A stretch of 64,000 nucleotides of DNA from Paractinoplanes toevensis (lineage in GTDB: Bacteria; Actinomycetota; Actinomycetes; Mycobacteriales; Micromonosporaceae). Below are positions 42 through 24,516 of the stretch, piece by piece. Each line of letters opens with the position of its first letter. Position 1 is the first letter of the stretch. The notes under the pieces are model-generated. The model had not been told where the DNA came from. It saw only the letters and a program-made list of their open reading frames with translations, and did not search any database. Where the stretch lies: the NCBI RefSeq assembly GCF_018332695.1, contig NZ_BOQN01000133.1, positions 1 through 64,000 of the forward strand, in the 5' to 3' direction. The position numbers and the translations under genes are program-made.

Positions 42-767
42 TCACGGCTGCACCCGGTGGGCGTGCAGCTTCTCGTAGAACGGGAGGTGGTGCGCCAGAT
101 ATTCGCGCAGCACCGGGTGGGCCGCCACGTCCACGTCGTACGCCTTCTCGGTGCGGTGGAATCCCTGGCTGGCGCCGGCGTCGGCATGCCAGCGCTCGCT
201 GGGTTTCCATTCCGGACGGTTGGCCGGCTGCCAGGCGAGCGCCTCGGCCCGGAACGGGATGCCGAGCTGAGCGCAGTAGGCGCGCACCGTCGCGGCCGGA
301 TCGGCGATCAGGTCGTCGGAGTCGACGACGACGGGTGGCTCACCGGTGGCGTCCCAGACCGCCTTGAAGATCTCGTACTGCGCCTCGACGCCGATCTGGT
401 GCCGCCGTACGTCCGGGTTGAGCGCGTGGTACGAGGCGATCGTCGCCGCCGGGTGGCGAATGATCATCGTGTGCTTCGCGTCGGTCGCGAGGAACGCGGT
501 GTCGGCCAGCACCTCCGGGTAACGCTCGTCGGTGGTGTCCTTGACGAAGAGCGGGCCCCGCTCGCCCAGCTCGCGCAGCGCGGCGAGCAGTGCCGTGCCG
601 TCGCGCACCTCGCGCTCCGCCACCTCGACCCGGCCGAACTCCGCCAGATAGGAGAACGGTTCGTGCAGGACCGAGAAGTCACCACGCTCGCACATCATGC
701 GGAAGAAGGCGGTGGACCGGCTCCGCGGAGCGGCCCACAACATCAGGACTTTCGGCAGTTTTTCCAC
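42..767 (-). CDS. Sulfotransferase family protein
   Basis: A 241-residue protein of the PAPS-dependent sulfotransferase fold. The N-terminal APRSRST segment (about residues 11-17) fits the 5'-phosphosulfate loop, HEPFS follows at about 35, and RHPAATIASY (about 105) fits the 3'-phosphate region. The GTG at 767 was chosen because GGAGAG lies just upstream and the fold begins immediately after it; a longer frame to 878 adds residues unlike the family. It is divergent from the lysW operon, so it is at the cluster edge. Known precedent: in azinomycin biosynthesis a sulfated AmCP-bound intermediate loses sulfate to close an aziridine ring. Inference: this enzyme may sulfate a hydroxyl of the LysW-bound or released amino acid. 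A role on an unrelated substrate cannot be excluded. Confidence 0.75.
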   Translation of the reverse strand: MEKLPKVLMLWAAPRSRSTAFFRMMCERGDFSVLHEPFSYLAEFGRVEVAEREVRDGTALLAALRELGERGPLFVKDTTDERYPEVLADTAFLATDAKHTMIIRHPAATIASYHALNPDVRRHQIGVEAQYEIFKAVWDATGEPPVVVDSDDLIADPAATVRAYCAQLGIPFRAEALAWQPANRPEWKPSERWHADAGASQGFHRTEKAYDVDVAAHPVLREYLAHHLPFYEKLHAHRVQP

Positions 768-1020
768 GTCTCTCCTAAGTGTTCGGCAGGTCTCCCCATT
801 CAGTGATGCACGCGGCCGGAGGGCTGTAAAGCGTGCTGACCGCAGGTCAAACCTGGCGTCCAGCAACGTCAACGCCACGTCCGCACGACTGCACCGAAGG
901 GCCCCGCGGAATCAACGAGAAGCGACGGTCGCATTCGTCACGGTGATGGACGCGTGAGCCGGGCCGGACGGGTTCTACTGAGCCGGACCTGCTGAGTGGC
1001 ACACGAAAGGCGAGAACGAA

Positions 1021-1188
1021 ATGACGACCAGCTGCCCGGAATGCGAGTCGAGCGTCACCCTCGGGGCGACGCCGCGAATCAGCGAGATCCTGGAATGCGG
1101 TGACTGCGCGAGCGAGCTCGAAGTCGTATCGCTCAACCCGACCACCGTCGCCCTGGCTCCCAACGTCGAAGAGGACTGGGGCGAGTGA
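1021..1188 (+). CDS. lysW: LysW-type amino-group carrier protein (AmCP), 55 aa
   Basis: This short gene encodes 55 residues with two zinc-ribbon pairs, CPEC (residues 5-8) and CGDC (26-29), and the C-terminus EDWGE. That C-terminal glutamate is the residue to which LysX attaches the alpha-amino group of the substrate in the LysW system. AAAGGCGAG precedes the ATG, and the TGA overlaps the GTG of the next gene by 4 bp, which couples it to lysX. LysW normally serves lysine or arginine synthesis in Thermus and archaea. Most actinobacteria make lysine by the diaminopimelate route, so a carrier beside NRPS genes points to secondary metabolism, as in the vazabitide and azinomycin clusters. Identification is strong; the attached substrate (glutamate) is inferred from the family. 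Confidence 0.93.
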   Translation: MTTSCPECESSVTLGATPRISEILECGDCASELEVVSLNPTTVALAPNVEEDWGE

Positions 1189-2042
1189 ACGCTCCGGTCG
1201 CCGTACTCGCGTCCCGGCTGCGCGCGGACGAGAAACGCATCCTCGATGCGTTCGACCGCCGCGGCGTGACGTACGAGTACCTCGACGCCCGCACGCTCTG
1301 GCGGACCCTGCAAGGTCCGCCGGAGCGGCGGTGGAGCGTCGTGCTCAACCGTGAGATCGGCTTCGCGCGGGCGGCCGGCGCCGCCCGGATGCTGGAGGCG
1401 GCGGGCGTGCCGGTACTCAACTCGGCGCAGGCGATCGAGGTGTGCGGGGACAAGTACCGCACCTCGGTCGCGCTGCACGAGGCCGGCCTGCCCACGCCGC
1501 GTACGGCGCTGGCCCTGACCCCCGAGGCCGCCCTGGACGCCCTCGACGAGATCGGCTATCCGGCCGTTCTGAAGCCCCTCAACGGTTCCTGGGGGCGGCT
1601 GGTGTCCCGGCTGACCGACCGGGAGACCGCCGAGACCGTCCTGGAGCACGTGGCGGCACTGCCGAGCCCGGCCGCGCACGTCATCTACGTGCAGGAGTTC
1701 ATCCCGACCGGCGACCGCGACGTGCGCGCCGTGGTCGTCGGCGGGGAGGTGCTCGGCGCTACCTACCGGCGCGGCGCGGGGTGGCGTACCAACGTCGCCC
1801 GCGGCGCCTCGACGGAGCCGTGCCCGCTCACTCCCGAGCTGGCGAAGGCGGCGGTCGCCGCCGCGCGCTGCGTCGGCGCCGACATCGCCGGCGTCGACCT
1901 GCTCGAGGACGGGCAGGGCGGATGGCTGGTGCTGGAGGTCAACGCGGGCGTGGAGTTCTCCGGTTTCCACCGCGTGCACGGCGAGTCCACCTCGGTCGCC
2001 GACCGGATCGTCGACCTGACCATGGCGAGGGCGGAGGAATGA
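1185..2042 (+). CDS. lysX: LysX-like ATP-grasp ligase, LysW-glutamate ligase
   Basis: A 285-residue ATP-grasp enzyme of the LysX/ArgX/RimK group. GDKYRTS (about residue 90), the VLKPLNGSWGRLVSR nucleotide-binding strand and loop (about 127-141) and the late metal-binding stretch EVNAGVEFSGF (about 252-262) are visible. It should form an isopeptide-type bond between the LysW C-terminal Glu side chain and the alpha-amino group of glutamate, which protects the amine. The GTG start overlaps the lysW stop as GTGA. Length is normal for the family (about 280). LysX proteins usually show an N-A-T-V-E-F segment; here it reads N-A-G-V-E-F, which may reflect divergence or altered substrate choice. Function is firm at the family level. 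Confidence 0.9.
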   Translation: MNAPVAVLASRLRADEKRILDAFDRRGVTYEYLDARTLWRTLQGPPERRWSVVLNREIGFARAAGAARMLEAAGVPVLNSAQAIEVCGDKYRTSVALHEAGLPTPRTALALTPEAALDALDEIGYPAVLKPLNGSWGRLVSRLTDRETAETVLEHVAALPSPAAHVIYVQEFIPTGDRDVRAVVVGGEVLGATYRRGAGWRTNVARGASTEPCPLTPELAKAAVAAARCVGADIAGVDLLEDGQGGWLVLEVNAGVEFSGFHRVHGESTSVADRIVDLTMARAEE

Positions 2043-3085
2043 GCGAGAAGCGGACCCGGGTGGCGGTGGCCGGGGCGTCCGGCTACATCGGCGGGGAACT
2101 GCTGCGGTTGCTGCTCGACCACCCGTACGTGGAGGTCGTGCTGGCCACCTCGGACTCGTTCGCCGGCAAGCGGGTGCACAACCCGCACCCGAACCTGCGG
2201 GGGCGCACCGAGTTGGCGTTCAGCCCGCACGACAGCCTCGGCGACGCGGCCGACCTGGACGTGTTGTTCCTGGCCATGCCGCACGGGCACACCATGAAGA
2301 AGATGCCGTGGTACCTGCAGCGGGCAGGTGTCGTCGTCGATCTCGGCGGGGACTTCCGGCTGCGCGACCCGGCCGGCTACCCGCGCTACTACGGCACCGA
2401 ACACCCGGCACCGGAGCTGCTGTCCAGCTTCGTCACCGGCCTGCCCGAGTGGCACCGCGACGAACTGCGCACCGCCGACCGGATCGCGGTGCCGGGCTGC
2501 ATGGCCACGGCCGGCATTCTCACCGTACGGCCACTGGCCGAGGCCGGGCTGCTCGACGGTCCGGTGCAGGTGGACGCGCGGACCGGGTCGAGCGGGTCGG
2601 GCGCGGCGGCCGGCTCGGCCAATCTGCACGCCGAACGCAGCGGCGCCATGCGGGTGTTCGCCCCCACCCAGCACCGACACGAGGCGGAGATCGCCCAGGC
2701 CACCGGATTGCCGGTGCACATGACGGCGACCGGGGTCGAGGCGGTGCGCGGCGTGCAGGTGCTGTGCCGGGCTCCGCTGGCCGGCGGCGTCCGCGAGGCC
2801 GACGTCCGCGCCGCCTACCGCAAGGCGTACGCCGAGGAACCGTTCGTCCGGGTGGTGGCTCAGCGCACCGGCGTCTACCGCCTGCCCGAGCCGAAGATCC
2901 TGGCCGGCTCGAACTACTGCGACGTCGGCTTCTCGGTGGCCGGCGACGGAAGCCAGGTCGTGCTCGTCGGCGCCCTGGACAACCTGGTCAAGGGCGGAGC
3001 CGGCAGCGCCGTGCAGGCGCTGAACGTGCGGTTCGGCTGGCCGGAGACCACCGGCCTGTCCTTCCCGGGACTGCACCCGAACTGA
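2039..3085 (+). CDS. lysY: LysY/ArgC-like LysW-gamma-glutamyl phosphate reductase
   Basis: A 348-residue NAD(P)H-dependent reductase of the ArgC/LysY family. GASGYIGGELLR (about residues 12-23) is the Rossmann loop, VPGCMATA (about 155) carries the catalytic cysteine, and HRHEAEI (about 215) the catalytic-site histidine region. It should reduce the LysW-bound acyl phosphate made by LysZ to the semialdehyde. The ATG overlaps the lysX stop as ATGA. Context with LysW and LysX favours the carrier-bound substrate over N-acetylglutamyl phosphate. The usual kinase-then-reductase logic applies even though lysY precedes lysZ here. Confidence 0.88.
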   Translation: MSEKRTRVAVAGASGYIGGELLRLLLDHPYVEVVLATSDSFAGKRVHNPHPNLRGRTELAFSPHDSLGDAADLDVLFLAMPHGHTMKKMPWYLQRAGVVVDLGGDFRLRDPAGYPRYYGTEHPAPELLSSFVTGLPEWHRDELRTADRIAVPGCMATAGILTVRPLAEAGLLDGPVQVDARTGSSGSGAAAGSANLHAERSGAMRVFAPTQHRHEAEIAQATGLPVHMTATGVEAVRGVQVLCRAPLAGGVREADVRAAYRKAYAEEPFVRVVAQRTGVYRLPEPKILAGSNYCDVGFSVAGDGSQVVLVGALDNLVKGGAGSAVQALNVRFGWPETTGLSFPGLHPN

Positions 3086-3116
3086 CAAACCCATTCAAGG
3101 AAGGGAGTACGGAGCG

Positions 3117-3965
3117 ATGCCAGAGACCATTGTGGTGAAGTGTGGCGGTAATGCCGCCGTCGATCCCCGGCTCGTCTGCCGGGACATCGCGGAGCTGGCC
3201 CGGGGACCGGCCCGCGTGGTGCTGGTGCACGGCGGCTCGGCCGACATCGACCACCTGGCCGCCCGGATGTCCGTGGCATCGCGACGCCTGGTCGCCCCGG
3301 ACGGGGTGTCCGCCCGGTACACCGACTCGGAGATGCTGGAGGTGGTGCACCTGGCCCTGGCCGGCCGGGCCAAGCCGCGGCTGGTGGCCGAGCTGATGCG
3401 CCTGTCCGTGCCGGCCGTGGGCCTGACCGGCCTGGACTCGGGCCTGCTGCGGGCCCGTCGCAAGAGCGCCCACCGCGCTCTGGTGGACGGCCGCAAGGTG
3501 GTGGTGCGCGACGACCACAGCGGCCGCATCACCGACGTGAACGCGGGTCTGCTAGAAGCTCTGCTGGACGCCGGGCAGGTGCCGGTCATCTCGCCGCCCG
3601 CGCTGGCCGAGGACGGTGAGCCGGTCAACACCGACGCCGACCGGGCCGCGGCCGCGGTGGCGGCGGCACTGAGCGCCGACACCCTCGTCCTGCTCACCGG
3701 GGCGCCGGGAGTGCTGGAGGACCCGGCCGACGAGACCTCGGTGCAGCCGGTGTGCGCCGTGCCGGCGAAGGGATCGCCGCCGGTGCGGGGCGGCGGCATG
3801 GGACTGAAGCTGGTGGCCTCGCGCGAGGCGTTGCTGGGCGGGGTGGGCCGCGTGCTCATCGCGGACGGCCGGCGAAGCTCCCCGGTGCGGGCCGCGCTGG
3901 CCGGCTCGGGGACCCGGGTCGTCGTGACCGAGCCGGCCCTGGCCGGCGTGGGTGCGGGCCGGTGA
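3117..3965 (+). CDS. lysZ: LysZ/ArgB-like LysW-glutamate kinase
   Basis: A 282-residue amino-acid kinase family protein. VVKCGGNAA (about residues 5-13) is the N-terminal phosphate-binding strand, VLVHGGSADID follows at about 33-43, NTDADRAAAAVA at about 171 is the ATP/Mg segment, and KLVASREAL lies near the C-terminus. It should phosphorylate the side-chain carboxyl of LysW-bound glutamate for LysY. AAGGGAG precedes the ATG. A 31-bp gap separates it from lysY, and its stop overlaps the lysK GTG. An arginine-pathway N-acetylglutamate kinase is the alternative; the LysW neighbour makes the carrier-bound substrate more likely. Confidence 0.88.
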   Translation: MPETIVVKCGGNAAVDPRLVCRDIAELARGPARVVLVHGGSADIDHLAARMSVASRRLVAPDGVSARYTDSEMLEVVHLALAGRAKPRLVAELMRLSVPAVGLTGLDSGLLRARRKSAHRALVDGRKVVVRDDHSGRITDVNAGLLEALLDAGQVPVISPPALAEDGEPVNTDADRAAAAVAAALSADTLVLLTGAPGVLEDPADETSVQPVCAVPAKGSPPVRGGGMGLKLVASREALLGGVGRVLIADGRRSSPVRAALAGSGTRVVVTEPALAGVGAGR

Positions 3966-5080
3966 ACCGGACCGAGGGCTGCCCGGACACGATCGCGGTC
4001 GGTCTGCTGCGCAGCCTGATCGAGATCCCGTCCCCCTCGTACGGCGAGGCCCGGCTCGCGGAACACCTGGTGGGTGTTCTGCGGGAGTTGGGCTTCACCG
4101 CCCACGTCGACAAGGCGGGCAACGCGGTCGGCGTGATCGACCGGGGCCCGGGCCCGACCGTGATGCTGCTCGGGCACATGGACACCGTCCCCGAGCAGAT
4201 CCCGGTGCGCGCCGAGCAGAACCGCCTCTACGGCCGCGGGGCGGTGGACGCCAAGGGGCCGCTGGCCACCATGGTGTGCGCCGCCGCCACGGCGCACGAC
4301 TACCACGGCCGGATCGTCGTGGTGGGTGCGGTGGAGGAGGAGACGCCGCTGTCCCGTGGTGCCGTGCTCGTGCGGGACACGCACGAGCAGCCGGATGCGC
4401 TGATCATCGGCGAGCCGAGCGGCTGGGACAACGTCGTGCTGGGCTACAAGGGCAAACTCGACCTCGCCTACCGCGTGTCCTGCCCGGCCACGCACCCGAG
4501 CAGCCCGGCTCCGAAGGCGGCCGAACTAGCGGCGGAGGCCTGGTCGGTGCTGCTCGACCTGCTCGGCCGGGACGCGATCCGGTCCAGCTTCGACGCGCCG
4601 TGGCCGTGCCTGGTCTCGATCCGCGGCGACCTGGTCGAGGCGGAGGCCGAGCTGAGCATCCGCACCCCGCCCGGATTCGACGACGAGGCGCTGATCGAGG
4701 GTCTGCGCCGCCGGCTTCCGGACGGCGAGCTTCACCTGATCAACACCATTGCCGCCTGCCGGGTGGACCGTCCCGACCCGGTGGTCCGGGCGCTGGCCGC
4801 AGGGATCCGCTCGCAGCAGGGCCGCCCCTCCTACAAGGTGAAGACCGGCACCTCGGACATGAACACCCTGGCGGTGCGGTGGAACATCCCGATGGCCACG
4901 TACGGCCCCGGGGACAGCCGGCTGGACCACGCCGATGACGAGCACATCCTGCTCACCGATTACCTGCGCGGGATCGAGGTCCTGCGGCACGCCCTGACCG
5001 AACTGGCCGGCGATCTGCCCGGCCGGGTCCGCCGCCGGCATTTGACGCTGGCCTCGGGAACCACGCGGACGGAGAGCTGA
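3962..5080 (+). CDS. lysK: LysK-like M20 hydrolase releasing the amino acid from LysW
   Basis: A 372-residue M20 metallopeptidase of the LysK/ArgE group. GHMDTV (about residues 70-75), GRGAVDAKGP (about 91-100) and EEETP (about 125) supply the two-metal site and catalytic glutamate. In the LysW system LysK cleaves the finished amino acid from the carrier. A GTG start overlapping the lysZ stop (GTGA) was chosen. It lies directly before the split transketolase. Together the genes give attachment, activation, reduction, two-carbon transfer and release, although the amine-forming step is not in this operon (see the DegT aminotransferase at 17240-18649). Confidence 0.88.
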   Translation: MNRTEGCPDTIAVGLLRSLIEIPSPSYGEARLAEHLVGVLRELGFTAHVDKAGNAVGVIDRGPGPTVMLLGHMDTVPEQIPVRAEQNRLYGRGAVDAKGPLATMVCAAATAHDYHGRIVVVGAVEEETPLSRGAVLVRDTHEQPDALIIGEPSGWDNVVLGYKGKLDLAYRVSCPATHPSSPAPKAAELAAEAWSVLLDLLGRDAIRSSFDAPWPCLVSIRGDLVEAEAELSIRTPPGFDDEALIEGLRRRLPDGELHLINTIAACRVDRPDPVVRALAAGIRSQQGRPSYKVKTGTSDMNTLAVRWNIPMATYGPGDSRLDHADDEHILLTDYLRGIEVLRHALTELAGDLPGRVRRRHLTLASGTTRTES

Positions 5081-5083
5081 GCG

Positions 5084-5929
5084 ATGACCGATCCCGACGA
5101 CGCCGAACTCCGGGAACGCTGCCTGCGGGTGCGGGAGTCGATCGTGCGGATGTGCGCCAACCCGGACGGCGGCCACCTCGGTGGCTCGATGTCGATGGTG
5201 GAGATCCTGGTGACGCTGTACCACCGGGTCCTGCGCATCGACCCGGCCGAGCCCACCGCACCCGACCGCGACCTGCTGATCCTGAGCAAGGGACACGGTG
5301 CGATCGGCCTCTACGCCGCTCTGGCCGAGCGTGGTTTCTTCCCCGCCGACTGGCTTGACCGGTACGCGGCCGCCGACGAGCCGCTGACCGCCCACCCGAC
5401 CAGGGCGGTGCCGGGCGTCGAGATGCCGACCGGCTCGCTGGGCCACGGGCTGTCGGTCGGCGCCGGCTTCGCCCTCGACTTCCGGCTCACCGGTAGTGAT
5501 CGGCGCTGCTTCGTCATCCTCGGCGACGGCGAGCTGCAGGAGGGCTCGAACTGGGAGGCCGCGATGGCGGCGAGCGCCCACCGCCTCGACCGCCTCGTCG
5601 CCGTCGTGGACCGCAACCGACTGCAGATCACCGGACCGACCGAGGACGCCGTGGGGCTGGAACCGCTCGCCGACCGGTGGCGCAGCTTCGGCTGGGAGGT
5701 GGTCGAGGTGGACGGCCACGACTTGACCGCCCTGCACACCGCCCTGGGCGAGGCACCGCGGGTCAGCGGGCGCCCGACCGTGGTCATCGCGCACACCGTC
5801 AAGGGCAAGGGCCTGCCCTACATCGAGGGACAGACCCGCAGCCACTACGCCCGGCTCACCGGCAAGCCCGCGAAGCGTGCGCTCGCCGTCCTGGGAGCCC
5901 ACCGCAGGAGAACGGAGCAGTCCGCATGA
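5084..5929 (+). CDS. Transketolase, N-terminal (thiamine diphosphate) subunit
   Basis: A 281-residue protein matching the TPP-binding half of transketolase. It has NPDGGHLGGSMS near residue 24, SKGHGAIGLYAAL near 66, and the TPP/Mg motif GDGELQEGSNWEA (about 147-159). GGAGAG precedes the ATG. The gene follows lysK by 3 bp and overlaps its C-terminal partner by 4 bp. Split transketolases occur in many secondary-metabolite clusters. In the vazabitide pathway a two-subunit transketolase adds a two-carbon ketol unit to the LysW-bound semialdehyde (established knowledge). The same role here is inferred from position in the operon. A pentose-phosphate housekeeping role is unlikely given the context. 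Confidence 0.88.
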   Translation: MTDPDDAELRERCLRVRESIVRMCANPDGGHLGGSMSMVEILVTLYHRVLRIDPAEPTAPDRDLLILSKGHGAIGLYAALAERGFFPADWLDRYAAADEPLTAHPTRAVPGVEMPTGSLGHGLSVGAGFALDFRLTGSDRRCFVILGDGELQEGSNWEAAMAASAHRLDRLVAVVDRNRLQITGPTEDAVGLEPLADRWRSFGWEVVEVDGHDLTALHTALGEAPRVSGRPTVVIAHTVKGKGLPYIEGQTRSHYARLTGKPAKRALAVLGAHRRRTEQSA

Positions 5930-6927
5930 CTATCACCCAGCAGCCGCCCGAGGTGACCGGGCCGCCGGCCGTCATCGGGCCGCCGCCCGTGGTGGCGCCA
6001 CCCGCCCCGCGCGAGGTGCACCGCGACGTCCTGATCGACCTGATGGCCCGCGACGAGCGTGTCGTCTGCCTGGACAGCGACACCGGGCTGTTCGCCGGGG
6101 TCGACTGGGGCGCGGCCGCCGACCGGTACATCAACCTCGGCATCGCCGAGCAGAACATGATGTCGGTCGCGGCCGGGCTCGCCCGGTCCGGCCGCATCCC
6201 GTACGTACACACCATGGCCACGTTCGCCGCGACCCGCGCGCTGGAGCAGGTCAAGTTGGACATCGCCTACAACGAGGTCCCGGTGCGGATCGTGGCGACG
6301 CACGGCGGGCTCTCCGGCGGCCATTACGGCACCTCCCACCACAGCCTGGAGGACGTGGGGGTGATGCGGATGCTGCCCGGCATGACCGTGCTGGTCCCCT
6401 CCGACGCGGCGACGACCCGCGAACTGGACCGGGCGAGCACCTATCGGCCCGGCCCGGTCTATCTGCGCCTGGGCCGCAGCGGCACCCCCGACCTGCCGGC
6501 CGGCGCCGAGACGCCGGAGATCGGGCGGGCCCGGTCGCTGCGCGCGGGCACCGACGTCACGCTGGTCGCCAGCGGACCCTACCCGGTGCTGGCCGCGCTG
6601 GAAGCGGCCGGTGACCTGGCCACGGTCGGGGTGTCGGCCGAGGTGCTCGAGGTGCACACGGTCAAGCCGCTCGACACCGAGGCGCTGGTCGCCGCGGCCG
6701 AGCACACGACCGGGCTGGTCGTGGTCGAGGAACACTGGGCGGCCGGTGGTCTGGGTTCGGCGGTCGCCGAGTGCGTGGCCGAGCTCGGCCTGGCCCGGCC
6801 GGTGCGCCGGGTGGCGGTCGGCGACCACTTCACCCGGGGCCGCGGCGGCCACCGTCATCTGCTGGCCGCCAACGGCATCACCGCCGAGGAGGTCGCCGCG
6901 CGGGTCTGGGAGGTGCTCGGCCGCTGA
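5926..6927 (+). CDS. Transketolase, C-terminal (pyrimidine-binding) subunit
   Basis: A 333-residue partner with the transketolase pyrimidine-binding and C-terminal domains. NLGIAEQNMMSVAAGLA (about residues 67-83) holds the conserved Glu that activates TPP, and THGGLSGGHYGTSHHSLED (about 125) and LRLGRS (about 182) are typical. The first 30 or so residues are a Pro-rich leader that may be a linker. The ATG overlaps the upstream subunit stop as ATGA, which suggests equimolar synthesis. It is the last gene of the operon and is followed by a strong inverted-repeat terminator. Confidence 0.88.
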   Translation: MTITQQPPEVTGPPAVIGPPPVVAPPAPREVHRDVLIDLMARDERVVCLDSDTGLFAGVDWGAAADRYINLGIAEQNMMSVAAGLARSGRIPYVHTMATFAATRALEQVKLDIAYNEVPVRIVATHGGLSGGHYGTSHHSLEDVGVMRMLPGMTVLVPSDAATTRELDRASTYRPGPVYLRLGRSGTPDLPAGAETPEIGRARSLRAGTDVTLVASGPYPVLAALEAAGDLATVGVSAEVLEVHTVKPLDTEALVAAAEHTTGLVVVEEHWAAGGLGSAVAECVAELGLARPVRRVAVGDHFTRGRGGHRHLLAANGITAEEVAARVWEVLGR

Positions 6928-6936
6928 CCCTTCGAC

Positions 6937-6985: not shown

Positions 6986-6988
6986 CGG

Positions 6989-16900: not shown

Positions 16901-17232
16901 GCCGGGCTGATCACCTGGTACGGCGATCCGTGCTCGGCCCGGAACGTGGTGCGCAGGCTCTCGTGCCGGACGACCAGCCCGCGCAGCGCCTCGCGCAGCG
17001 CTTCCCGGTCGAGGGTGCCGCGCAGGCGCAGCGCGAACGGCACCTGATAGGTGGCCGCGCCCGGGTCCAGCTGGTGCAGCAGCCACTGGTATCGCTGCTG
17101 CTTGGACACGGGCAGATAGCCCTCGCGCGGGATCCGCTCGATGGTGTTGCGCCGGGCCGCCTCCGCACGCCGGCGACGCTGCCGCAGGTCGGCAAGCGCC
17201 CGCTTGGTGTCGTTGACACTCCCCGTCGTCAT
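13993..17232 (-). CDS. NRPS, one module: C-A-PCP
   Basis: A 1079-residue synthetase. The condensation domain (about 40-450) has an intact HHIVTDG at about residue 164. The adenylation domain (about 470-960) has YTSGSTGKPKG near 629 and NGYGPTEA near 764. The carrier domain has GGNSLQ near 1004. The A-domain pocket reads D-V-F-D-F-G-G-V-A-K, the same as both domains of the next NRPS. The N-terminal C domain implies an upstream donor, for which the free-standing A-PCP protein at 22394-24172 is the obvious candidate. GGGGAG precedes the ATG 7 bp after the aminotransferase stop. The charged C-terminal tail after the PCP may dock to the next protein. Confidence 0.92.
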   Translation of the reverse strand: MTTGSVNDTKRALADLRQRRRRAEAARRNTIERIPREGYLPVSKQQRYQWLLHQLDPGAATYQVPFALRLRGTLDREALREALRGLVVRHESLRTTFRAEHGSPYQVISPAPETWELPVTDLAGDRLADWLAAEVRRPFDLAEGPLLRTGLARVAEDEHVLLLVMHHIVTDGWSVGVMARELAALYEGRTLPEPAVQPVDHAAWQQSAAGREVLDRQLEYWRGQLTDLPVLDFPADRPRPAAPAGTGAVVRQKLDPAVAAGVRELAQCLRVTLLAVLQAGFVTVLSRWSGQSDVVIGSVLSGRTRPETESMVGFFANSAVLRVGVDGDPTFADVARRCSDAVLDALGNQDVPFGAVVDALKPDRVPGRNPLFQISFTLLTDAILDRFRLGDLSVEPVPADNGTARFDMAFQVDEAPDGSLSVWLEYSTELFDEDRMLRLVRHFERALRLGIADPEARVATLPLLAPEEWAEIQGWNPPPLAREGSLHDLVADWVSRTPDAPAVINNDDLLSYADLSVAADRVAVALRDLGVDRGTVVGVLLDRGPGLPVAELGVLKAGGAWLPLDPQQPPARWAAQLEDAGAIAVVTTSALAADLPADLPQWHLDTAPRTEVEPVHTKVSPDDLAYIIYTSGSTGKPKGVMISHRAAASFVQNAGELFGLKPGDRLLQFANPAFDVSVFDIFAALGSGAAVVTASRETLLDPDKLQDLLESSRVTVADLPPAVLRLLDPKPLTDLRALFVGLEAFPAELVNRWVSPTREFHNGYGPTEATVACVDYKCPPTGLEQSPPIGRAMTNHRVYVLDEHLQPVPVGVAGELFIGGDGLARGYANRPGLTAERFLPDPFTGERMYRTGDVVRWRSDGNLEFLGRRDRQVKIRGLRIELAEVEHALTAVEGVRQAVVTVDQPGTPQAALVGYVVGPAGGVREQLMQRLPLHMVPTYVIELDALPLTGNGKLDHTKLPAPNTVAQEHRPPGTDTERAIAGIWHDLLGTPLDQIGATDSFFDLGGNSLQATRLTARIADALRTTVELRTLFARPVLAELAAAIDAERSRAATAEVELEEEIAGLSEAELDRLLSEETR

Positions 17233-17239
17233 GTCGCTG

Positions 17240-18649
17240 CTACTCCCCTTCGGTGAGATCGCGGTCCGCTGCTGGGAACGCCTGGGCCCATTCCTTCTCG
17301 GCGATGGCGGTGGCCTGCTGCCACGGCGGCTGGTAGTCCAGCTGGGCGGCGTACCCGGCGATCCGGTCGCGGTCGGCCCAGACCTTCCGGAATCCCTCGG
17401 CGTAGCGCATCAGCAGGTCGCCGGCGTCCGGGTGCAGGTGCGCCTTCTGGATGGCGAAGGAGTTGTCGATGACCGCGTGGGTGATCGGGAAGTCGCTCTC
17501 CCGGTAGGGCCGGTCGAGGACGCCGGGCAACGCCCACGGGTACTCCCCGAGCCCGCGGTGCTCCCGGAAGACCCGCTGGGCGGGTAGTGGCATCAGCTGG
17601 TAGGGCGCGGCCGGTACCCCCTCGGCCCGCAGGGCCCGCTGCACGGCCGCCCGGATCGGGCCGGCGTGCTCGGGGCCGAGCCCGAACGCGGCGGGGTCGA
17701 TCCGGAACCGCAGGATGTGCCAGGCGTGGGTGCGGTCGGCCGGTGGCCCGGGAAGGGCGAGGCCGGTCAGGCCGGCCAGTTCGTCCAGCATCCGGCGTAC
17801 GTTGTGGTCGCGCTGCTCGCACTCCTCGGGGAAGCGGGCCAGCTGGCTGCGGGTGAACGCGGCCTGCAGCGCGCTGGGCTTGTTGTTCCAGCCCAGCTCG
17901 TGGGCCACGTAGCTGCGTTCGCCCTTGGCCGCGATCAGCTCGCCGAACTGCCGCAGCATGGTGGCCCGGGCCGCCAGCTCCGGGTCGTCGGTGGTGATCA
18001 GGCCGCCCTCGCCACAGGTGGCGAGGTTCTTGCTCACGTTGAGGCTGAACGTGTTGATGGCGCCGAGCGAGCCGACCGGGCGCCCCCGGTAACGGGCGCC
18101 GTGGGCTTGCGCGGCGTCCTCCACCACCGGGATGCCGTAGCGTCCGGCCACGGCGAGGATCTCGTCCATGTCGACCGGCAGGCCGTGCAGGTGGACCACC
18201 ACGACGGCCCGGGTGCGGGGGCTGATCGCCGCCTCGACGGTCGCCGCGGTGACGTTGTAGGTGTACGGGTCGACGTCGGCGAAGACCGGCACGGCCATCA
18301 GATGCAGGGGCGCGGCGGCGGTGGCGATGAAGCTGAGCGCCGGCACGACGACCTCGTCGCCCGGGCCGACGCCGAGTGCCCGCAGGGCCACCGAGAGGGC
18401 GGCGGTGCCGTTGCTGACCGCGATGCAGTGCCGGGTGCCGGCCTGCTCGGCCCATTCGCGTTCCAGGCCGGGGATCTCCTGTTCGCCGGCGGCGGCCGCG
18501 GTGAACCGCCCGGAGTCGAGGGCGCGCAGCACCGCCTCCCGGTCGGCGGGGGTGACCCGCGGCCAGGCGGGGATGCGGGTGCCGCGGGCGACGGCGGGCC
18601 GTCCGCCGAACAGGGCGAGGCCGGTACGGGTTTCCGAGGTCGTGGTCAC
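17240..18649 (-). CDS. DegT/DnrJ/EryC1-type PLP aminotransferase
   Basis: A 469-residue fold-type I aminotransferase of the sugar-aminotransferase family. NGTAALSVALRALGVGPGDEV (about residues 71-91) binds the cofactor phosphate, DAAQAHGA (about 173) contains the Asp that contacts PLP, and SLNVSKNLATCGEGG (about 198) contains the Schiff-base Lys. At 469 residues it is longer than the usual 370-430, with the extra sequence at the C-terminus. A GTG start overlaps the BtrH-like gene stop (GTGA). The lysW operon has no LysJ-type aminotransferase. This enzyme is therefore the best candidate to aminate the ketone made by the transketolase while the substrate is on LysW. That assignment is inference. 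Confidence 0.82.
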   Translation of the reverse strand: MTTTSETRTGLALFGGRPAVARGTRIPAWPRVTPADREAVLRALDSGRFTAAAAGEQEIPGLEREWAEQAGTRHCIAVSNGTAALSVALRALGVGPGDEVVVPALSFIATAAAPLHLMAVPVFADVDPYTYNVTAATVEAAISPRTRAVVVVHLHGLPVDMDEILAVAGRYGIPVVEDAAQAHGARYRGRPVGSLGAINTFSLNVSKNLATCGEGGLITTDDPELAARATMLRQFGELIAAKGERSYVAHELGWNNKPSALQAAFTRSQLARFPEECEQRDHNVRRMLDELAGLTGLALPGPPADRTHAWHILRFRIDPAAFGLGPEHAGPIRAAVQRALRAEGVPAAPYQLMPLPAQRVFREHRGLGEYPWALPGVLDRPYRESDFPITHAVIDNSFAIQKAHLHPDAGDLLMRYAEGFRKVWADRDRIAGYAAQLDYQPPWQQATAIAEKEWAQAFPAADRDLTEGE

Positions 18650-19668
18650 AGTTGGGCTCTCTCCCGGTCCAGCGCGAGCAGCGCGCGTTCCTGATCGTTG
18701 AGCAGGGCGTCGAAGCGGCCGGCCAGGCGCGGGGCGCTCAGTCCGGTGCTGGTGAGGGCGGCCATGATGCGGACCGCGGACCAGTGGTGGGCGATGCGCT
18801 CCACCTCGCGGGCCCGCTCGGCCAGCGAGGGCAGTCCGGCGGTGCGGGCGGCCTCGGCGAGCCAGTCGGCGTGCACGGCGGTGCCGACGAGCACCGCGCC
18901 GGCCGCGACGAACAGTTCGTCGCGGATGTCCTCGCCGGCGGACAACCGTTTCACGGTGTCGTCGAAGAACTCGCGCATGCCGGCCAGCCCGGTGTAGCCG
19001 CCGTCGCCGGTCGCGGGTTCCGCGAAGTGCCGCAGGTTGAGATCGAGGACGCGGGCCACCTCGGCGCGGTCCAGGGCGGGCACGGCGTCCGGTGCGGGCA
19101 GCTCGACGCTCAGCCAGCGGTTGTCGATGCGTACGCCGGTGAAGAACATGTCCCGGTCGTGCACCACCTCGTTGCCCGAGTCGCGGGAGGCGGTCAGCTC
19201 GGCGAGGGTGATGTCGCCGTGGAAGGCGGGCGGTACCGCGTCGAGCACCCGCACGGTGCCCGCCTCGTCGTCGAAGCCGTGCACCACGACCAGGTGGTTG
19301 GAGTGCACGTCGTGGTAGGCGGGCCGGAACGGCAGGTGGTAGTTGTCGACCGCGACCGCGACCGGGATGCCGGCGGCCACCGACGCGCGCACCTCGGCCC
19401 AGCCCGCCTCGGCGCCGGCCGGCTCGTGCCAGGTCGACGCGACCTCGTGATGGGGTGCCAGCGCCCGCAGCAGCGAGGTCTCCGGCGGGCACGGGTAGTA
19501 GTACTCCTCGCGGCGTACGCCGTCCGGCCGGTGCCGGAAGGTCCAGGCCGCACCGAGGATCGGCAGGGCGGGCAGCCCGTGGAAATCGAGCAGGGTGGCG
19601 AAGCAGGAGTGCAGGCAGCCGCCGAGATCGTGCCGCCAGGATCGGACGCCGTCCACCACGGTTCTCAT
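18646..19668 (-). CDS. BtrH-like (butirosin H N-terminal family) acyl-transfer or cyclase candidate
   Basis: A 340-residue protein whose N-terminal half resembles the BtrH family of papain-like enzymes. GGCLHSCFATLL (about residues 16-27) supplies a candidate nucleophilic Cys, and HSNHLVVVHGFDD (about 124) a candidate His. BtrH moves an acyl chain from a carrier protein to an amine in butirosin synthesis (established knowledge). The C-terminal half is helical and unassigned. It is coupled by 4-bp overlaps to genes on both sides. It could transfer a carrier-bound acyl group, or act on the LysW-bound intermediate; neither is shown by sequence. Confidence 0.6.
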   Translation of the reverse strand: MRTVVDGVRSWRHDLGGCLHSCFATLLDFHGLPALPILGAAWTFRHRPDGVRREEYYYPCPPETSLLRALAPHHEVASTWHEPAGAEAGWAEVRASVAAGIPVAVAVDNYHLPFRPAYHDVHSNHLVVVHGFDDEAGTVRVLDAVPPAFHGDITLAELTASRDSGNEVVHDRDMFFTGVRIDNRWLSVELPAPDAVPALDRAEVARVLDLNLRHFAEPATGDGGYTGLAGMREFFDDTVKRLSAGEDIRDELFVAAGAVLVGTAVHADWLAEAARTAGLPSLAERAREVERIAHHWSAVRIMAALTSTGLSAPRLAGRFDALLNDQERALLALDRERAQL

Positions 19669-20237
19669 CGGTGCTCCTGTCCGGCCGCCGGGACGAGGGT
19701 CATGGCGAAGATGTGGATCGCCGGGTTGTCCGGCAGGCGTACGGCTCGCAGCGCGGCGTCGCGGGGCACCGGCACCCGCTGCCGCCAGATCGATGGCCCG
19801 AATTTCCGGTCGACGTGCCGCGGGTAGTGCAGGTGGGTGCATCGGTAGGCGGCCGTCTCGCCGAAGTGGGCGGCGGTCTCCGGCCAGAAGTCCGAGACGC
19901 GCAGCCATTCCGGATCGACGCCGCCGTCGGCGTAGTGCAGCCACAGCGGGTCCTCGGTGCGGCGTTCGGCCGCGGCGAGCAACTGGATCCAGTCGTAGCG
20001 GCCGGCCGGCACCTCGATGAGCTGGCCCGCGCAGCGGACGTTGTCCGGCCGGCCCGGCGCGGCCGGCGGGAAGCGGAACGGGATGTCGTCCACCCGGACC
20101 GGTCCCGCGGCGGGTAGCTGGTCGGCGGGGTACGTGTTGCCCCAGATGTTGAAGCCGCCCGCGTCTTTCCGGTCGGCGGTGGTGATGCCGGTGTTGTCGG
20201 CATACGGATCGAGGTCGACGGCGAGCGGAGAGCTCAT
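19665..20237 (-). CDS. Unknown 190-aa beta-rich protein coupled to the BtrH-like gene
   Basis: I do not recognise a function. The protein is rich in aromatic and beta-prone segments (NIWGNTYPADQLP near residue 30, GRYDWIQLL near 76, LWLHYADG near 96, HLHYPRHVD near 136). It looks like a beta-sandwich of the kind seen as accessory domains in glycosidases and as small proteins in natural-product clusters. No signal peptide, transmembrane segment or obvious catalytic motif is visible. The ATG at 20237 lies 2 bp after the GNAT gene, and its stop overlaps the BtrH-like start (ATGA), so the two may act as a pair. Confidence 0.6.
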   Translation of the reverse strand: MSSPLAVDLDPYADNTGITTADRKDAGGFNIWGNTYPADQLPAAGPVRVDDIPFRFPPAAPGRPDNVRCAGQLIEVPAGRYDWIQLLAAAERRTEDPLWLHYADGGVDPEWLRVSDFWPETAAHFGETAAYRCTHLHYPRHVDRKFGPSIWRQRVPVPRDAALRAVRLPDNPAIHIFAMTLVPAAGQEHR

Positions 20238-20239
20238 GA

Positions 20240-21058
20240 TCACCTGGCCACGGTTGTAGTAACGAGTGGTTCCGCGCCGGGCGCGGGCCGGTAGCGGGCG
20301 TGCAGGTCGGGGTGAACGGTGCGGGGCATGAGGTGGGCGCGCAGCTGGGCGCGGGGAACCGGGAAGTGGACCTCGGCACCGGCGGGCCGGCCGTGCCGGG
20401 CCAGGCCGGCCAGCACCTCGTCGTGCCGGCCGGGATCGGGGTGCACGTCGACGCCGGCCAGGCGGGCGCCCGGGCCGGCCGTCGCGGTGCCGGTGCCGAT
20501 GACCGCGGTGAGCCCACGGTCGTCGAGCAGCCAGGTGACGACCAGGGCCGCCTCCGGCCCCGGCGGCAGCCAGGCCGGTCCGGCGGTCACCGGAGTGCCC
20601 GGTGACCGGATCATCGAGACCTCGCTCAGCGGCTTGTCGCCGGGCAGCCAGTGCCGTTCGGGCCGGTAGCCGAGCCGGGCGTAGAAGGGCGGAAGGCAGC
20701 GCTCGACCACGGCGTCGAGGCGGATCCGGGCGATGCCCGCGGCGACCGCGGCCTCGTCCACCATGGACAGCAGCGCGCGGGCCGCTCCGGTGCGGCGCCG
20801 GGCCGGATCGGTGGCGACCCGGCTGATCTCCCACTCCCCCGCATGCGGGTGCACCCGCAGCACGCCGGTGAGCCGGCCCGCCGGGTCTCGCACCACCCAG
20901 ACGAGTGCTCCGGCGCGCAGGTCGGCGCGGACCGACGCGGCGGTCTCCCGGGCGCCGTCCGGCACCGGAAGGCCGGGGAACGGGTCGCCGGCCGCGTAGG
21001 CGGCGCGGGTCAGGGCGGCGATCTCCCCGGCCTCGGCGGCCGATGCCCGCTCACTCAT
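20240..21058 (-). CDS. GNAT-family N-acetyltransferase with C-terminal extension
   Basis: A 272-residue protein. Residues 1-150 form a GNAT domain with the acetyl-CoA loop VATDPARRRTGAARALL (about 80-96) and YARLGYRP (about 127). The last 120 residues are a second, unassigned region with WLLDDRGLTAVIGTGTA. It overlaps the M20 gene by 8 bp. In a diamino-acid peptide cluster it may acetylate a free amine, either as a tailoring step or for self-protection. The nearby M20 hydrolase could then remove the group. This is inference; the domain call is firm. Confidence 0.75.
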   Translation of the reverse strand: MSERASAAEAGEIAALTRAAYAAGDPFPGLPVPDGARETAASVRADLRAGALVWVVRDPAGRLTGVLRVHPHAGEWEISRVATDPARRRTGAARALLSMVDEAAVAAGIARIRLDAVVERCLPPFYARLGYRPERHWLPGDKPLSEVSMIRSPGTPVTAGPAWLPPGPEAALVVTWLLDDRGLTAVIGTGTATAGPGARLAGVDVHPDPGRHDEVLAGLARHGRPAGAEVHFPVPRAQLRAHLMPRTVHPDLHARYRPAPGAEPLVTTTVAR

Positions 21059-22397
21059 GATCGAGGAGGAGCTGGTGGAAGCAGTCGGCGGCGAAGTGCA
21101 GCGCCTCCACGGCGATCCGCTCGTCCGCGCAGTGCAGCAGGCCGCGGTAACCGCGGTCGAGCGGATGCCGCAGCGGGAACCAGCCGAAGCACTGGATGCC
21201 GAGCCGCGGGAACAGCCGGGCGTCGGTGGACGCCGTGGTCACCATCGGGAACGCGATGCCGCCGGGGTCGCTGCCGGTGAGGATCGAGGCGAGCCGGTCG
21301 TAGAAGCCGTCGAGCCGCGGCGGCGGCATCATCTCCCCCTCGACCAGGATCTCCAGGTCCATCTCGACGCCGGCCCGGGCGCGCAGGGCGGCGAGGAAGT
21401 CCGCGGTGCCGAAGTCGCCGGGCAGCAGCCGCCCGTCCAGCTCCACGGAGATGTCGGTGGGCAGCACGTTGGTGGCCGTGCCGCCGTGCACGACGGTGGC
21501 GTTGACCGTGTGGCGCACCAGTGAGCGCAGGTAGCGGGCGTCGGCCTCGTCGAAACCGTCGAGTGCGGCGGCGTCGGCCGGGTTGTCGCGGAAGCCGGCG
21601 ATCCGGCCGCTGATCGGCTCGGGCAGCGCCCCGGCCAGCTCGTCCAGCATCCGCCGCACCACCGGGGTGAGGCAGATGTCCAGCCCGCCGTCGTCGATGG
21701 CGGCCAGCAGCCGGTACAGCTTGTGGGCCGCGCCGCCCGGCCCGGCGACCCGGGAGGCGTGTCCGCCGTCGCCGCGCAGCGTGGCACGCACCCAGCAGGC
21801 CCGTTTCTCGGCGACGACGATCGGGTGCAGCCGCACTCGCCGGCCCAGTCCCAGCTCGGCGCCGCCGTCCTCGCCGATCGCGTGGCGCACCCCGGCGAAC
21901 AGCTCCGGGTGCTGCTCCACCAGGAAGTGGGCGCCGGTGGTGCTGCCGTTCTCCTCATCCGGCATCACCGCGAGGATCACGTCACCGGCCGGCGGGGTGC
22001 CGTCGGCGGCCAGCCGCAGCACGGCGGCGAGCATGGTGGCCAGGTGTCCCTTCATGTCGACCGCGCCGCGGCCCCAGAGCTCGCCGTCGACCACGTCGGC
22101 GGCGAACGGCGGGCGGCTCCACGGCTGCCCGGCGACCGGCACCACATCCACGTGGGCGTGCAGCAGCAGCGGCGGGGCCACCCCGCGGCCGGCCAGGCGG
22201 GCGACGAGGTTGGGCCGCTGCGGATCGACCGCCAGCAGCCGCGTCTCGAGGCCGGCCGCGTCGAGCAGGTCGCGGATCCAGATGACGCACTCGGCCTCCG
22301 CGCCGGGCGGGTTGACGGTGGGGAACCGGATGAGCTGCTGGGCGATGGCCACCGGTTCGGTCGGCAGCTGGACCCGGGACGGGACGGTGACGCTCAC
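21051..22397 (-). CDS. M20-family metallopeptidase/deacylase (second in the cluster)
   Basis: A 448-residue M20 hydrolase of the ArgE/DapE/carboxypeptidase type. HAHVDVVP (about residues 68-75), GRGAVDMKGHLA (about 101) and PDEENGSTTGA (about 136) make the metal and catalytic sites. A dimerisation domain follows. It belongs to a different branch from LysK at 3962-5080 and is about 75 residues longer. GTG at 22397 overlaps the A-PCP stop. Possible jobs are removing an N-acyl group added by the neighbouring GNAT enzyme, or trimming the peptide. Confidence 0.8.
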   Translation of the reverse strand: MSVTVPSRVQLPTEPVAIAQQLIRFPTVNPPGAEAECVIWIRDLLDAAGLETRLLAVDPQRPNLVARLAGRGVAPPLLLHAHVDVVPVAGQPWSRPPFAADVVDGELWGRGAVDMKGHLATMLAAVLRLAADGTPPAGDVILAVMPDEENGSTTGAHFLVEQHPELFAGVRHAIGEDGGAELGLGRRVRLHPIVVAEKRACWVRATLRGDGGHASRVAGPGGAAHKLYRLLAAIDDGGLDICLTPVVRRMLDELAGALPEPISGRIAGFRDNPADAAALDGFDEADARYLRSLVRHTVNATVVHGGTATNVLPTDISVELDGRLLPGDFGTADFLAALRARAGVEMDLEILVEGEMMPPPRLDGFYDRLASILTGSDPGGIAFPMVTTASTDARLFPRLGIQCFGWFPLRHPLDRGYRGLLHCADERIAVEALHFAADCFHQLLLDHE

Positions 22398-24172
22398 GCC
22401 AGACGCTCCTCGATCAGCGCGGCCAGCTTCGCCACGGTGGGGTTGGCGTAGAAGTCGCGCGGGCCGATCACGACGTCCCACTGGGCGGAGATCTCGCCGG
22501 TGATCCGTACGGCCATCAGTGAGTGGCCGCCGAGCTCGAAGAAGTCGTCGTCGGCGCCCACCTCGTCCAGCCCCATCAGGTCGGCCCAGAGTGCGGCGAC
22601 GGCGGTCTCCAGCTCGCCGTCCGGGGCGGTCCAGTCGCTGCTCAGCTCGGGCCGCCGCGGCAGTTCCCAGGCGCGCAGGGCGGCCCGGTCGACCTTGCCG
22701 TTGTGGTTGAGCGGCATCGCGCCGAGTTGCACGAAGCGGGCCGGTACCAGGTAGTCGGGCAACTGCTCGGTCAGCTCGAAGCGCAGGTCGGGCACCGGCA
22801 GCTTCTCCGCGCCGATGAGGAACGCCACCAGCCGCCGGCCGCTGCGCGGGTGGTCCTGTGCGACCACGACAGCGTCGAGCACCCCGGACAGGGCCAGCAG
22901 CGCGGCCTCCACCTCGCCGGGCTCGATCCGGAACCCGCGGATCTTGACCTGGTCGTCGGCGCGGCCGAGGAACTCCACCATGCCGTCGGGCAGGAGACGG
23001 GCGAGGTCACCGGTGCGGTACATGCGGGCGCCCGGGGTGGCCGCGAACGGGTCGGGCAGGAACCGCTCGGCGGTGTGCCCGGGCCGGCCGAGGTAGCCGT
23101 GGGCGAGGCCGTCGCCGCCGGTCCAGAGTTCGCCGGGTTCGCCGTCCGGCACCGGCCGCAGCCGGTCGTCTAGCAGGTGGACGGTGGTGCCGTTGATGGG
23201 CCGCCCGATCGGCACGGTGGCGGTGGTGACCGGCGCCGTCATCGGGTGACAGCAGGTGAAGGTGGTGTTCTCGGTGGGGCCGTAGCCGTTGACGACGGTG
23301 GTGCCGGGCAGCGCGGCGAGCGCCCGGCCGACGTGCGCCACGGAGAGCACGTCGCCGCCGGCCAGCAGGTAGCGCAGACCGGCCAGGCGCTCGATCGGAC
23401 CGTCCACCATCTGGTGGAACAGCCCCGCGGTGAGCCACATGACGGTGACGCCGGCGTGCCGCACCGTGCCGGCCAGTTCGTCCAGGGTCGGCTCGCCGGC
23501 CGGGAAGACCACGATCCGCGCGCCGTGCGCCAGCGGTGCCCAGATCTCCAATGTGGAGGCGTCGAAGGCGACCGGGGCCAGGCACAGCACCGCGTCGTCC
23601 GGGCCGAGGTGCACGTAGTCCGGGTCGGCAACCAGCCGGACCACGCCCCGATGCGGGACGATCACGCCCTTCGGCGTGCCGGTGGAGCCGGAGGTGTAGG
23701 CGATGTAGGCGGTGGAGTCGGCGGTGACGTCCGGGTCGTGCCCGGTGACCGGCCCGGCGTACGCGTCCGGGTCGTCCAGGTTGATCACCTGCGCCGCGAG
23801 TTCGGCGGCGTCACCGGCCAGCGCCCGCTCGGTGAGCAGCACGGCGGTGCCGGCGTCGGCCACGGTGTGCCGGTGCCGCTCGTACGGATGCCGGGTGTCC
23901 AGGGCGACGTAGGCGGCGCCCGCCTTGAGAATGGCCAGCAGGCCGACGATCAGGTCGGCGGAACGGCGAGCCAGGACACCGACGTGGTCGCCGGCGGCCA
24001 CGCCGTGGTGGCGCAGGGTCGCGGCCAGGCGGCCGGCCCGATCGTCCAGCTCGGCGTACGTGAGCCGGGTGTCCCCGCACTCGACCGCGGGTGCGTCCGG
24101 TGTCCGCCCGGCCCAGGCCGCCACCAGGCCGTGCACCGTACGGGCTTCGACGGTTACCGAGGTAGCTGTCAT
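22394..24172 (-). CDS. Free-standing NRPS loading protein: A-PCP
   Basis: A 592-residue protein. The adenylation domain (about 10-500) has AYTSGSTGTPKGV, NGYGPTENTT, YRTGDLARL and NHNGKVD. The carrier domain (about 520-590) has DDFFELGGHSL. The pocket read by eye is D-A-L-W-L-G-G-T-F-K, close to the classical valine code (D-A-F-W-I-G-G-T-F-K). A small branched aliphatic residue is therefore the best guess. No condensation domain is attached, so it probably loads the starter for the C domain of NRPS 13993-17232, or supplies a BtrH-type transfer. ATG at 24172 follows GGAGTGG and begins the standard A-domain N-terminus. Confidence 0.9.
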   Translation of the reverse strand: MTATSVTVEARTVHGLVAAWAGRTPDAPAVECGDTRLTYAELDDRAGRLAATLRHHGVAAGDHVGVLARRSADLIVGLLAILKAGAAYVALDTRHPYERHRHTVADAGTAVLLTERALAGDAAELAAQVINLDDPDAYAGPVTGHDPDVTADSTAYIAYTSGSTGTPKGVIVPHRGVVRLVADPDYVHLGPDDAVLCLAPVAFDASTLEIWAPLAHGARIVVFPAGEPTLDELAGTVRHAGVTVMWLTAGLFHQMVDGPIERLAGLRYLLAGGDVLSVAHVGRALAALPGTTVVNGYGPTENTTFTCCHPMTAPVTTATVPIGRPINGTTVHLLDDRLRPVPDGEPGELWTGGDGLAHGYLGRPGHTAERFLPDPFAATPGARMYRTGDLARLLPDGMVEFLGRADDQVKIRGFRIEPGEVEAALLALSGVLDAVVVAQDHPRSGRRLVAFLIGAEKLPVPDLRFELTEQLPDYLVPARFVQLGAMPLNHNGKVDRAALRAWELPRRPELSSDWTAPDGELETAVAALWADLMGLDEVGADDDFFELGGHSLMAVRITGEISAQWDVVIGPRDFYANPTVAKLAALIEERLA

Positions 24173-24186
24173 GTCCACTCCCTGGG

Positions 24187-24381
24187 TCAGCGCAGGCTCA
24201 GCGGCCGCATGTCGGTCCACACCTCGTCGACGTGGGCCAGGCACTCCGCCTTGGTGCCGCGGGTCCCGTCCGGGCGCCAACCGCCGGGCACCGCCAGCTC
24301 GGCGGGCCAGATCGAGTACTGCTCCTGCTGGTTGACGACGACGACGTACTCGCGGGCGTCCTCGTCCTCCGGGCCGGACAT
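24187..24381 (-). CDS. MbtH-like protein
   Basis: A 64-residue MbtH-family protein. It has VVVNQQEQYSIWP (about residues 14-26) and the C-terminal WTDMRPLSLR; the conserved tryptophans and NxExQYSxWP pattern are present. MbtH proteins bind A domains and support their folding and activity, so it probably serves the four A domains of this cluster. The ATG at 24381 is preceded by GAGGTGG; a longer frame to 24420 adds 13 residues and has no better ribosome site. It is the first gene of the NRPS operon. Confidence 0.92.
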   Translation of the reverse strand: MSGPEDEDAREYVVVVNQQEQYSIWPAELAVPGGWRPDGTRGTKAECLAHVDEVWTDMRPLSLR

Positions 24382-24516
24382 CGCATCCACCTCTTTCTGT
24401 TCAGCTTTCGGGCTCTGCATTGGAAGTTATGGCGGGGGCGGGGTCGCACACATCCACGCGGCGATGCAATCCGGTCCAGCCGGGGTAGCCGTGTCGTTGA
24501 CGACCGTCCAGACCGC

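Follow-up and report, generated by a model that had tools for sequence, protein, structure and literature searches.

A candidate azabicycle nonribosomal peptide synthetase locus with three consecutive azabicycle-type modules in Paractinoplanes toevensis, distinct from the ficellomycin and azinomycin clusters

INTRODUCTION

Peptides containing an azabicycle are rare natural products that alkylate DNA, and they are not known to carry more than one such ring. An oxidase heterotetramer is said, in the title of a 2023 work by Cheng, to complete the azabicycle together with the nonribosomal peptide synthetase (NRPS). The described systems closest to the one considered here are those for vazabitide A, azinomycin, and ficellomycin. 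In the vazabitide A (vzb) system, 2,6-diamino-5,7-dihydroxyheptanoate (DADH) is bound to the carrier protein LysW. PDB entry 7WUX is the complex of the aziridine synthase subunits AziU3 and AziU2 with O7-sulfo-DADH (excerpt of PMC11168924), and sulfation followed by aziridine closure is described in a section of a review (PMC9570651). Here we describe a locus of Paractinoplanes toevensis (assembly GCF_018332695.1, contig NZ_BOQN01000133.1) that is best filed as an azabicycle NRPS with three consecutive azabicycle-type modules, distinct from the ficellomycin and azinomycin clusters. The window, by which we mean the whole stretch of DNA analyzed, covers bases 1 to 64000 of a contig 115916 bases long, in a 10.9-Mb draft genome of 287 contigs.

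RESULTS

Two neighboring NRPS genes are found in the window. NRPS_A encodes two condensation-adenylation-thiolation (C-A-T) modules followed by a thioesterase (TE), and NRPS_B encodes a single C-A-T module; core motifs are kept in all three condensing modules, and all three A domains carry the same ten-residue code, DVFDFGGVAK. An earlier note on this DNA, made from the sequence alone, had read three NRPS modules of the same specificity here, and these features bear it out. A free A-T protein has the code DALWLGGTFK, which we take to be valine-like; its A domain groups with DAWWLGGTF domains in an A-domain tree, and the protein probably starts the chain. The A-T, NRPS_B, and NRPS_A-TE proteins are encoded in colinear order on one strand. 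When the host genome was scanned, the three module A domains matched the query at 91 to 100% identity and the other nine matches (E ≤ 1e-60) at 40 to 47%; no further A domain of the DVFDFGG type was found in this genome. Gene content, intact motifs, family assignments, and identical codes are read directly from the DNA. The modules are most directly read as using the shared code three times in succession, and we regard it as probable that this NRPS locus builds an aziridine amino acid on LysW and places three copies of it in a row in a short peptide.

Among the three window modules, identity is 91 to 95% for the A cores, 49 to 81% for the C domains (compared by half), and 53 to 70% for the T domains; the comparison was also made in blocks of 60 columns. 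With A domains this similar, a longest exact repeat of 183 bases between modules, and a draft of 287 contigs, the third module might be an assembly error. The C and T domains differ clearly, however, and we therefore count three distinct modules; a related Streptomyces locus (G670, below) also has three. We give an assembly error very little credence.

Genome scans with AziU2 at E ≤ 1e-25, made on overlapping samples, gave matches in 24 of 354 genomes sampled from the host's family, in 28 of 392 from the genus Streptomyces, to which genome G079 belongs, and in 2 of 396 from the phylum (host included); the families of G072 and G079 gave 18 of 341 and 31 of 394, respectively. Apart from the window, 49 AziU2 loci were read over up to 40 kb each, with 60 kb for G670 and shorter stretches where contigs ended. 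Outside these 49 stand five matches of the Streptomyces scan (G454, G525, G556, G646, and G708), the short loci L017 and L018, and the NRPSs of the close relatives G1615, G1688, G1788, G1400, G1389, and G1187. The motif DVFDFGG[VC][AT] occurred in 36 of the 49 loci: as one copy in 33, as two in three (G020, G051, and G670), and as three in none. Seven loci had no full A domain within the stretch read, and six had A domains without the motif, namely, G246 (DVLDFGGVM), G391 and G568 (DVFDFGAVA, with an oxidase pair farther on), G118, G444, and G445. G1091, outside the 49, has one DVFDFGGVT. The motif was absent from all 10 LysW loci examined that lacked AziU2 in the stretch read (L003 to L008, L010, and L012 to L014; L009 and L011 were left out), a control made by locus, some of those genomes carrying AziU2 elsewhere. 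In the tree, which held 113 A domains (quick method, midpoint root), the 43 of the DVFDFGG type, that of G246 included, formed one clade (Shimodaira-Hasegawa approximate likelihood ratio test [SH-aLRT], 99).

Judged by this co-occurrence, the shared code is a marker of AziU2 clusters, and it most likely selects the aziridine or azabicycle residue. Code type and clade are common to the window and the ficellomycin-type locus described below, the code ending in VA in the former and VT in the latter, and we accordingly class the window modules as putative azabicycle-loading modules. Homologs of the sulfotransferase, of LysW, and of the oxidase large subunit were found in 41, 45, and 37 of the 49 loci, respectively.

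Pfam gave no useful function call for two adjacent genes that are homologous, over most of their length, to the aziridine synthase subunits: one matches AziU3 (PDB 8gs1_B, E 3e-52; 7wuw_C, E 5e-52) and the other AziU2 (7wuw_A and 8gs1_A, E 3e-48). Their identity to the azinomycin proteins is 45% for AziU2 and 42% for AziU3. When 53 sequences were aligned for AziU2 and 52 for AziU3, the window proteins retained all positions at which conservation reached 97% or more (28 in AziU2 and 39 in AziU3), a measure of family-wide conservation rather than of catalytic residues. The presence of both subunits with these positions, along with a sulfotransferase for the sulfate ester substrate, points to a synthase of the AziU3/AziU2 type.

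AziU2-like domains (about 30% identity) also occur within long open frames, mostly of about 1000 to 1200 residues, in many actinomycetes (L089 to L112), and the host genome has two such domains of its own (G000:C83:40969-41454 and C49:155517-156062). The domains of these long frames are a possible source of the aziridine synthase subunit. Separately, the AziU2 match at G391:C14:44455-45000 (L176) contains one internal TGA, flagged in the scan.

The LysW protein has 55 residues, two Cys pairs, and a C-terminal Glu within an EDWGE tail, which we take to be the defining motif of LysW. With LysX, LysZ, LysY, LysK, a transketolase whose N and C halves are separate genes, and an aminotransferase in the same locus, the window probably encodes a LysW-dependent DADH pathway. 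Every gene listed in the earlier note (LysW, LysX, LysY, LysZ, LysK, the split transketolase, the sulfotransferase, DegT, and the NRPSs) lies where it had been placed. Its proposal of a building block like those of vazabitide, azinomycin, and ficellomycin gains support from the AziU3/AziU2 homologs, a Fic32-33-type oxidase subunit, and the A-domain code that marks AziU2 clusters. DADH could in principle be used without aziridine formation, as in LysW clusters that have no aziridine synthase: in four LysW-NRPS loci (L003 to L006), the genes from LysW to transketolase plus DegT are 62 to 73% identical to those of the window, and no AziU2 or AziU3 was found in the stretch read. The window, however, has AziU2, AziU3, and the sulfotransferase in intact form, and the A codes of those four loci differ, being Ser-like and others. 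Such a use of DADH is therefore highly improbable here.

Two acyl-CoA-dehydrogenase-like genes lie to the right of the NRPS genes. The larger subunit is homologous by sequence to PDB 8hk0 (E 1e-95; "Crystal structure of Fic32-33 complex from Streptomyces ficellus NRRL 8067"), and it is because of this match, not of the predicted model, that we assign it to the Fic32-33 family; the model was poor (mean predicted local distance difference test score [pLDDT], 47), and its fold search was used only for the 8hk0 title. The adjacent small gene is paired alike in other AziU2 loci, and no 8hk0 chain was among the 60 matches listed for it.

We infer every chemical step of the following pathway, and likewise that all three modules are used, that valine starts the chain, and that the assembly line is colinear. 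LysX would ligate glutamate to LysW, and LysZ and LysY would convert the side chain to the aldehyde. The split transketolase would add two carbons and DegT an amino group, to give LysW-bound DADH. The sulfotransferase would then sulfate O7, and AziU2/AziU3 would let the C6 amine displace the sulfate to form the aziridine. LysK would release the amino acid; sulfation, aziridine closure, and release may also follow one another in a different order. The three DVFDFGGVAK A domains would load the aziridine residue, the Fic32-33-type oxidase would dehydrogenate the T-bound residue, and the aziridine nitrogen would close the 1-azabicyclo[3.1.0]hexane ring (residue Azb). With valine supplied by the A-T protein, NRPS_B would add residue 1 and NRPS_A residues 2 and 3, before release of the peptide by the TE.

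The predicted product is Val-Azb-Azb-Azb, C26H41N7O8, with [M+H]+ at 580.3089 (valine plus three C7H12N2O3). A peptide in which three 1-azabicyclo[3.1.0]hexane residues follow one another, either this one or a ring or acetylated form of it, is a tentative proposal that we rate somewhat short of even; it would be a poly-aziridine, possibly alkylating DNA at several points, and such assembly lines would grow by copying of the azabicycle A domain into adjacent modules. The end product might instead be vazabitide A or a close dipeptide, made through a longer precursor or skipped modules and trimming by the M20 peptidase. The mass of vazabitide A, 271.32 in a table of PMC10957976, equals by mass arithmetic valine plus one C7H12N2O3 minus water, that is, valine and one azabicycle residue, and the operon of the window has both a Val-type starter and an M20 peptidase. 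The three modules with their core motifs and the TE are retained, however, and the near-identical A domains suggest that each is used for the same residue; we think the dipeptide unlikely. Vazabitide A, with one azabicycle residue against three predicted for the window, is set apart here by mass and not by gene order.

Several points weigh against a product with three azabicycles. The code is tied to the residue by co-occurrence, not by measured specificity, and the link is not absolute: the azinomycin-type loci G445, G444, and G118 have AziU2/AziU3, yet the 40 kb read there holds no A domain of this type. NRPS modules can also be skipped or used iteratively. Base 1 of the window is base 1 of the contig, so the left side of the cluster may be cut and genes may be missing. 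The best solved-structure match of the small oxidase subunit is at E 1.5e-21, with no equally strong relative, and both oxidase genes are 10 to 12 kb away from the nearest Azb module. In G670 the oxidase homolog is on another contig, and in G051, which has two such modules, the whole genome gave no oxidase large-subunit match at E ≤ 1e-40. The distance of the oxidase pair from the NRPS and the cases of G670 and G051 would suit modules that take the open aziridine amino acid with the ring left unclosed, to give a tris-aziridine or, once opened, a hydroxypyrrolidine peptide. The large subunit nevertheless belongs to the Fic32-33 family, whose homologs, as counted above, are present in most AziU2 loci, and we likewise hold the unclosed form to be improbable. 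We continue with the three-azabicycle product as the preferred reading.

An uncharacterized Streptomyces locus (G670:C15; L232 to L234) shares the core set with the window, mostly in the same order, at identities of 76% for M20, 56% for GNAT, 73% for AziU2, 74% for AziU3, 73% for DegT, 69 to 78% for the transketolase and Lys genes, and 66% for the sulfotransferase. It likewise has LuxR, MbtH, a Val-type A-T protein, and two NRPS genes. Unlike the window, it combines two DVFDFGGVA modules with a third bearing the Thr-like code DFWNVGMVH, has additional P450, free T, and ligase-like genes and sulfate-activation-like genes adjoining the sulfotransferase, and has no oxidase pair nearby. The genes adjoining the sulfotransferase (L234:15252-17467) encode a PAPS reductase domain and an EF-Tu-like GTPase, as in CysD/CysN; a search for the CysD-like gene in the genome of the window, run without a positive control, gave no match.

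The layout had been put forward in the earlier note as one without a described counterpart. The module layout (A-T, C-A-T, C-A-T-C-A-T-TE) is ordinary for an NRPS, whereas the repeated azabicycle-type specificity is unusual. Nor is the layout isolated: G670 is syntenic, and five more genomes (G1615, G1688, G1788, G1400, and G1389) carry the block M20-GNAT-AziU2-AziU3-DegT; lines of three such modules may thus exist outside the window as well. G470, on a short contig, has one such module. Literature searches, mostly at the level of listings, brought up no paper that we recognized as describing this layout; we do not claim that it is unpublished.

One protein of G578 matches 8hk0_A at 100% identity across 374 residues and lies beside one DVFDFGGVT module; G578 is therefore of the ficellomycin type. 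This locus shares with the window the LysW set, sulfotransferase, AziU2, AziU3, DegT, transketolase, Azb A domain, and oxidase, and differs in having one module found, no GNAT match, and another gene order; the oxidase subunit of the window is 44% identical to its own. The window is not the ficellomycin cluster, having three modules against the one found in G578. G445, of the azinomycin type (AziU2 96.6% and AziU3 93.9% identical to the PDB proteins), shares AziU2/AziU3, transketolase, DegT, the LysW set, sulfotransferase, and oxidase homologs with the window and, unlike it, lacks a DVFDFGG A domain over the 40 kb examined. The window is not the azinomycin cluster either, given the low AziU identities reported above and a different NRPS set.

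The features of the locus are listed in Table 1. A plus-strand operon (1021-6927) runs from LysW to the transketolase halves, and a minus-strand run (25191 to 6989) from LuxR to NRPS_A. The sulfotransferase is at the left edge, and the exporter and the dehydrogenase-like pair are on the right (25471-29599). The cluster extends beyond the end given in the earlier note, at least to the pair ending at 29599; the A-T, M20, GNAT, AziU2/AziU3, LuxR, and MFS genes and this pair were not in that note's gene list. In a scan of the window up to 52572, no gene at 29775-52572 looks related to the cluster; those present include genes for a flavin adenine dinucleotide (FAD)-linked oxidase, an NmrA-like protein, a quinone reductase, regulators, and sugar kinases and sugar transport. 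On the minus strand at 29775-35384, the FAD-linked oxidase, which is similar to BagK/FevA1, stands with the NmrA-like protein, the quinone reductase, and regulators.

Table 1. Genes of the locus, with window coordinates and the matches behind each assignment
Feature	Coordinates	Strand	Basis or remark
Sulfotransferase (Sulfotransfer_5), proposed O7 sulfation of DADH	42..758 (start possibly upstream, up to 878)	-	E 9.5e-18
LysW-type amino-group carrier protein	1021..1188	+	C-terminal EDWGE
LysX ATP-grasp ligase, proposed glutamate-to-LysW joining	1185..2042	+	LysX_arch, E 1.5e-80; 270 bits, slightly below curated NCBIfam cut-off of 276
LysY, putative LysW-glutamyl-phosphate reductase	2039..3085	+	argC family, E 1.8e-103
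LysZ, putative LysW-glutamate kinase	3117..3965	+	[LysW]-aminoadipate kinase family, E 2.7e-72
LysK hydrolase, proposed amino-acid release from LysW	3962..5080	+	[LysW]-lysine hydrolase family, E 3.4e-107; 359 bits, slightly below NCBIfam cut-off of 363
Transketolase N half (thiamine-diphosphate domain)	5084..5929	+	
Transketolase C half (pyrimidine-binding and C-terminal domains)	5926..6927	+	
NRPS_A, C-A-T-C-A-T-TE	6989..13972	-	Both A domains DVFDFGGVAK
NRPS_B, C-A-T	13993..17232	-	A domain DVFDFGGVAK
DegT/DnrJ aminotransferase, proposed C6 amino-group donor step on DADH	17240..18649	-	E 7.4e-88
AziU3-type aziridine synthase subunit	18646..19668	-	Pfam BtrH_N; PDB 8gs1_B, 7wuw_C
AziU2-type aziridine synthase subunit	19665..20237	-	PDB 8gs1_A, 7wuw_A
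GNAT acetyltransferase	20240..21058	-	Homolog in 10/49 AziU2 loci
M20-family peptidase/deacylase, possible peptide processing	21051..22397	-	Match in 9/49 AziU2 loci, seven at >50% identity
Free A-T protein, probable valine-loading starter	22394..24172	-	Code DALWLGGTFK
MbtH-like protein	24187..24420	-	
LuxR-type response regulator	24517..25191	-	~33-55% similar regulators in many AziU2 loci
MFS exporter	25471..26805	-	
Acyl-CoA-dehydrogenase-like small subunit of proposed oxidase	27322..28425	-	
Acyl-CoA-dehydrogenase-like large subunit, Fic32-33 family, proposed azabicycle completion on NRPS	28442..29599	-	PDB 8hk0

DISCUSSION

The A domains look homogenized within each of the window and G670 clusters: compared in blocks of 50 columns, the two azabicycle A cores of G670 mostly share 98 to 100% identity, against about 71% with those of the window. 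The two A domains of G020 and G051 pair between genomes in the tree. Near-identical A domains next to diverged C and T domains (window 6989-17232; L233 to L234) suggest gene conversion or A-domain copying. We also considered an origin of the third window module from a swap of a Thr for an azabicycle A domain in a G670-like ancestor. The A domains fit this idea, and of the window T domains, that of module 3 comes closest to its counterpart in G670 module 3 (51% versus 40 and 44%); the C domain does not fit, being 47 and 58% identical, by half, to that of G670 module 3, no closer than to other modules.

No clustered DNA-repair resistance gene of the AlkZ type was found on the contig of the window; the genome has six AlkZ-like glycosylase genes (G000:C49, C15, C38, C3, C95, and C84).

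The three matching modules predict a multivalent alkylator with exact masses, and the DVFDFGG A-domain code next to AziU2 would serve as a practical marker for genome mining. Near-identical A domains amid diverged C and T domains would be a natural case of apparent A-domain copying, of use for NRPS engineering.

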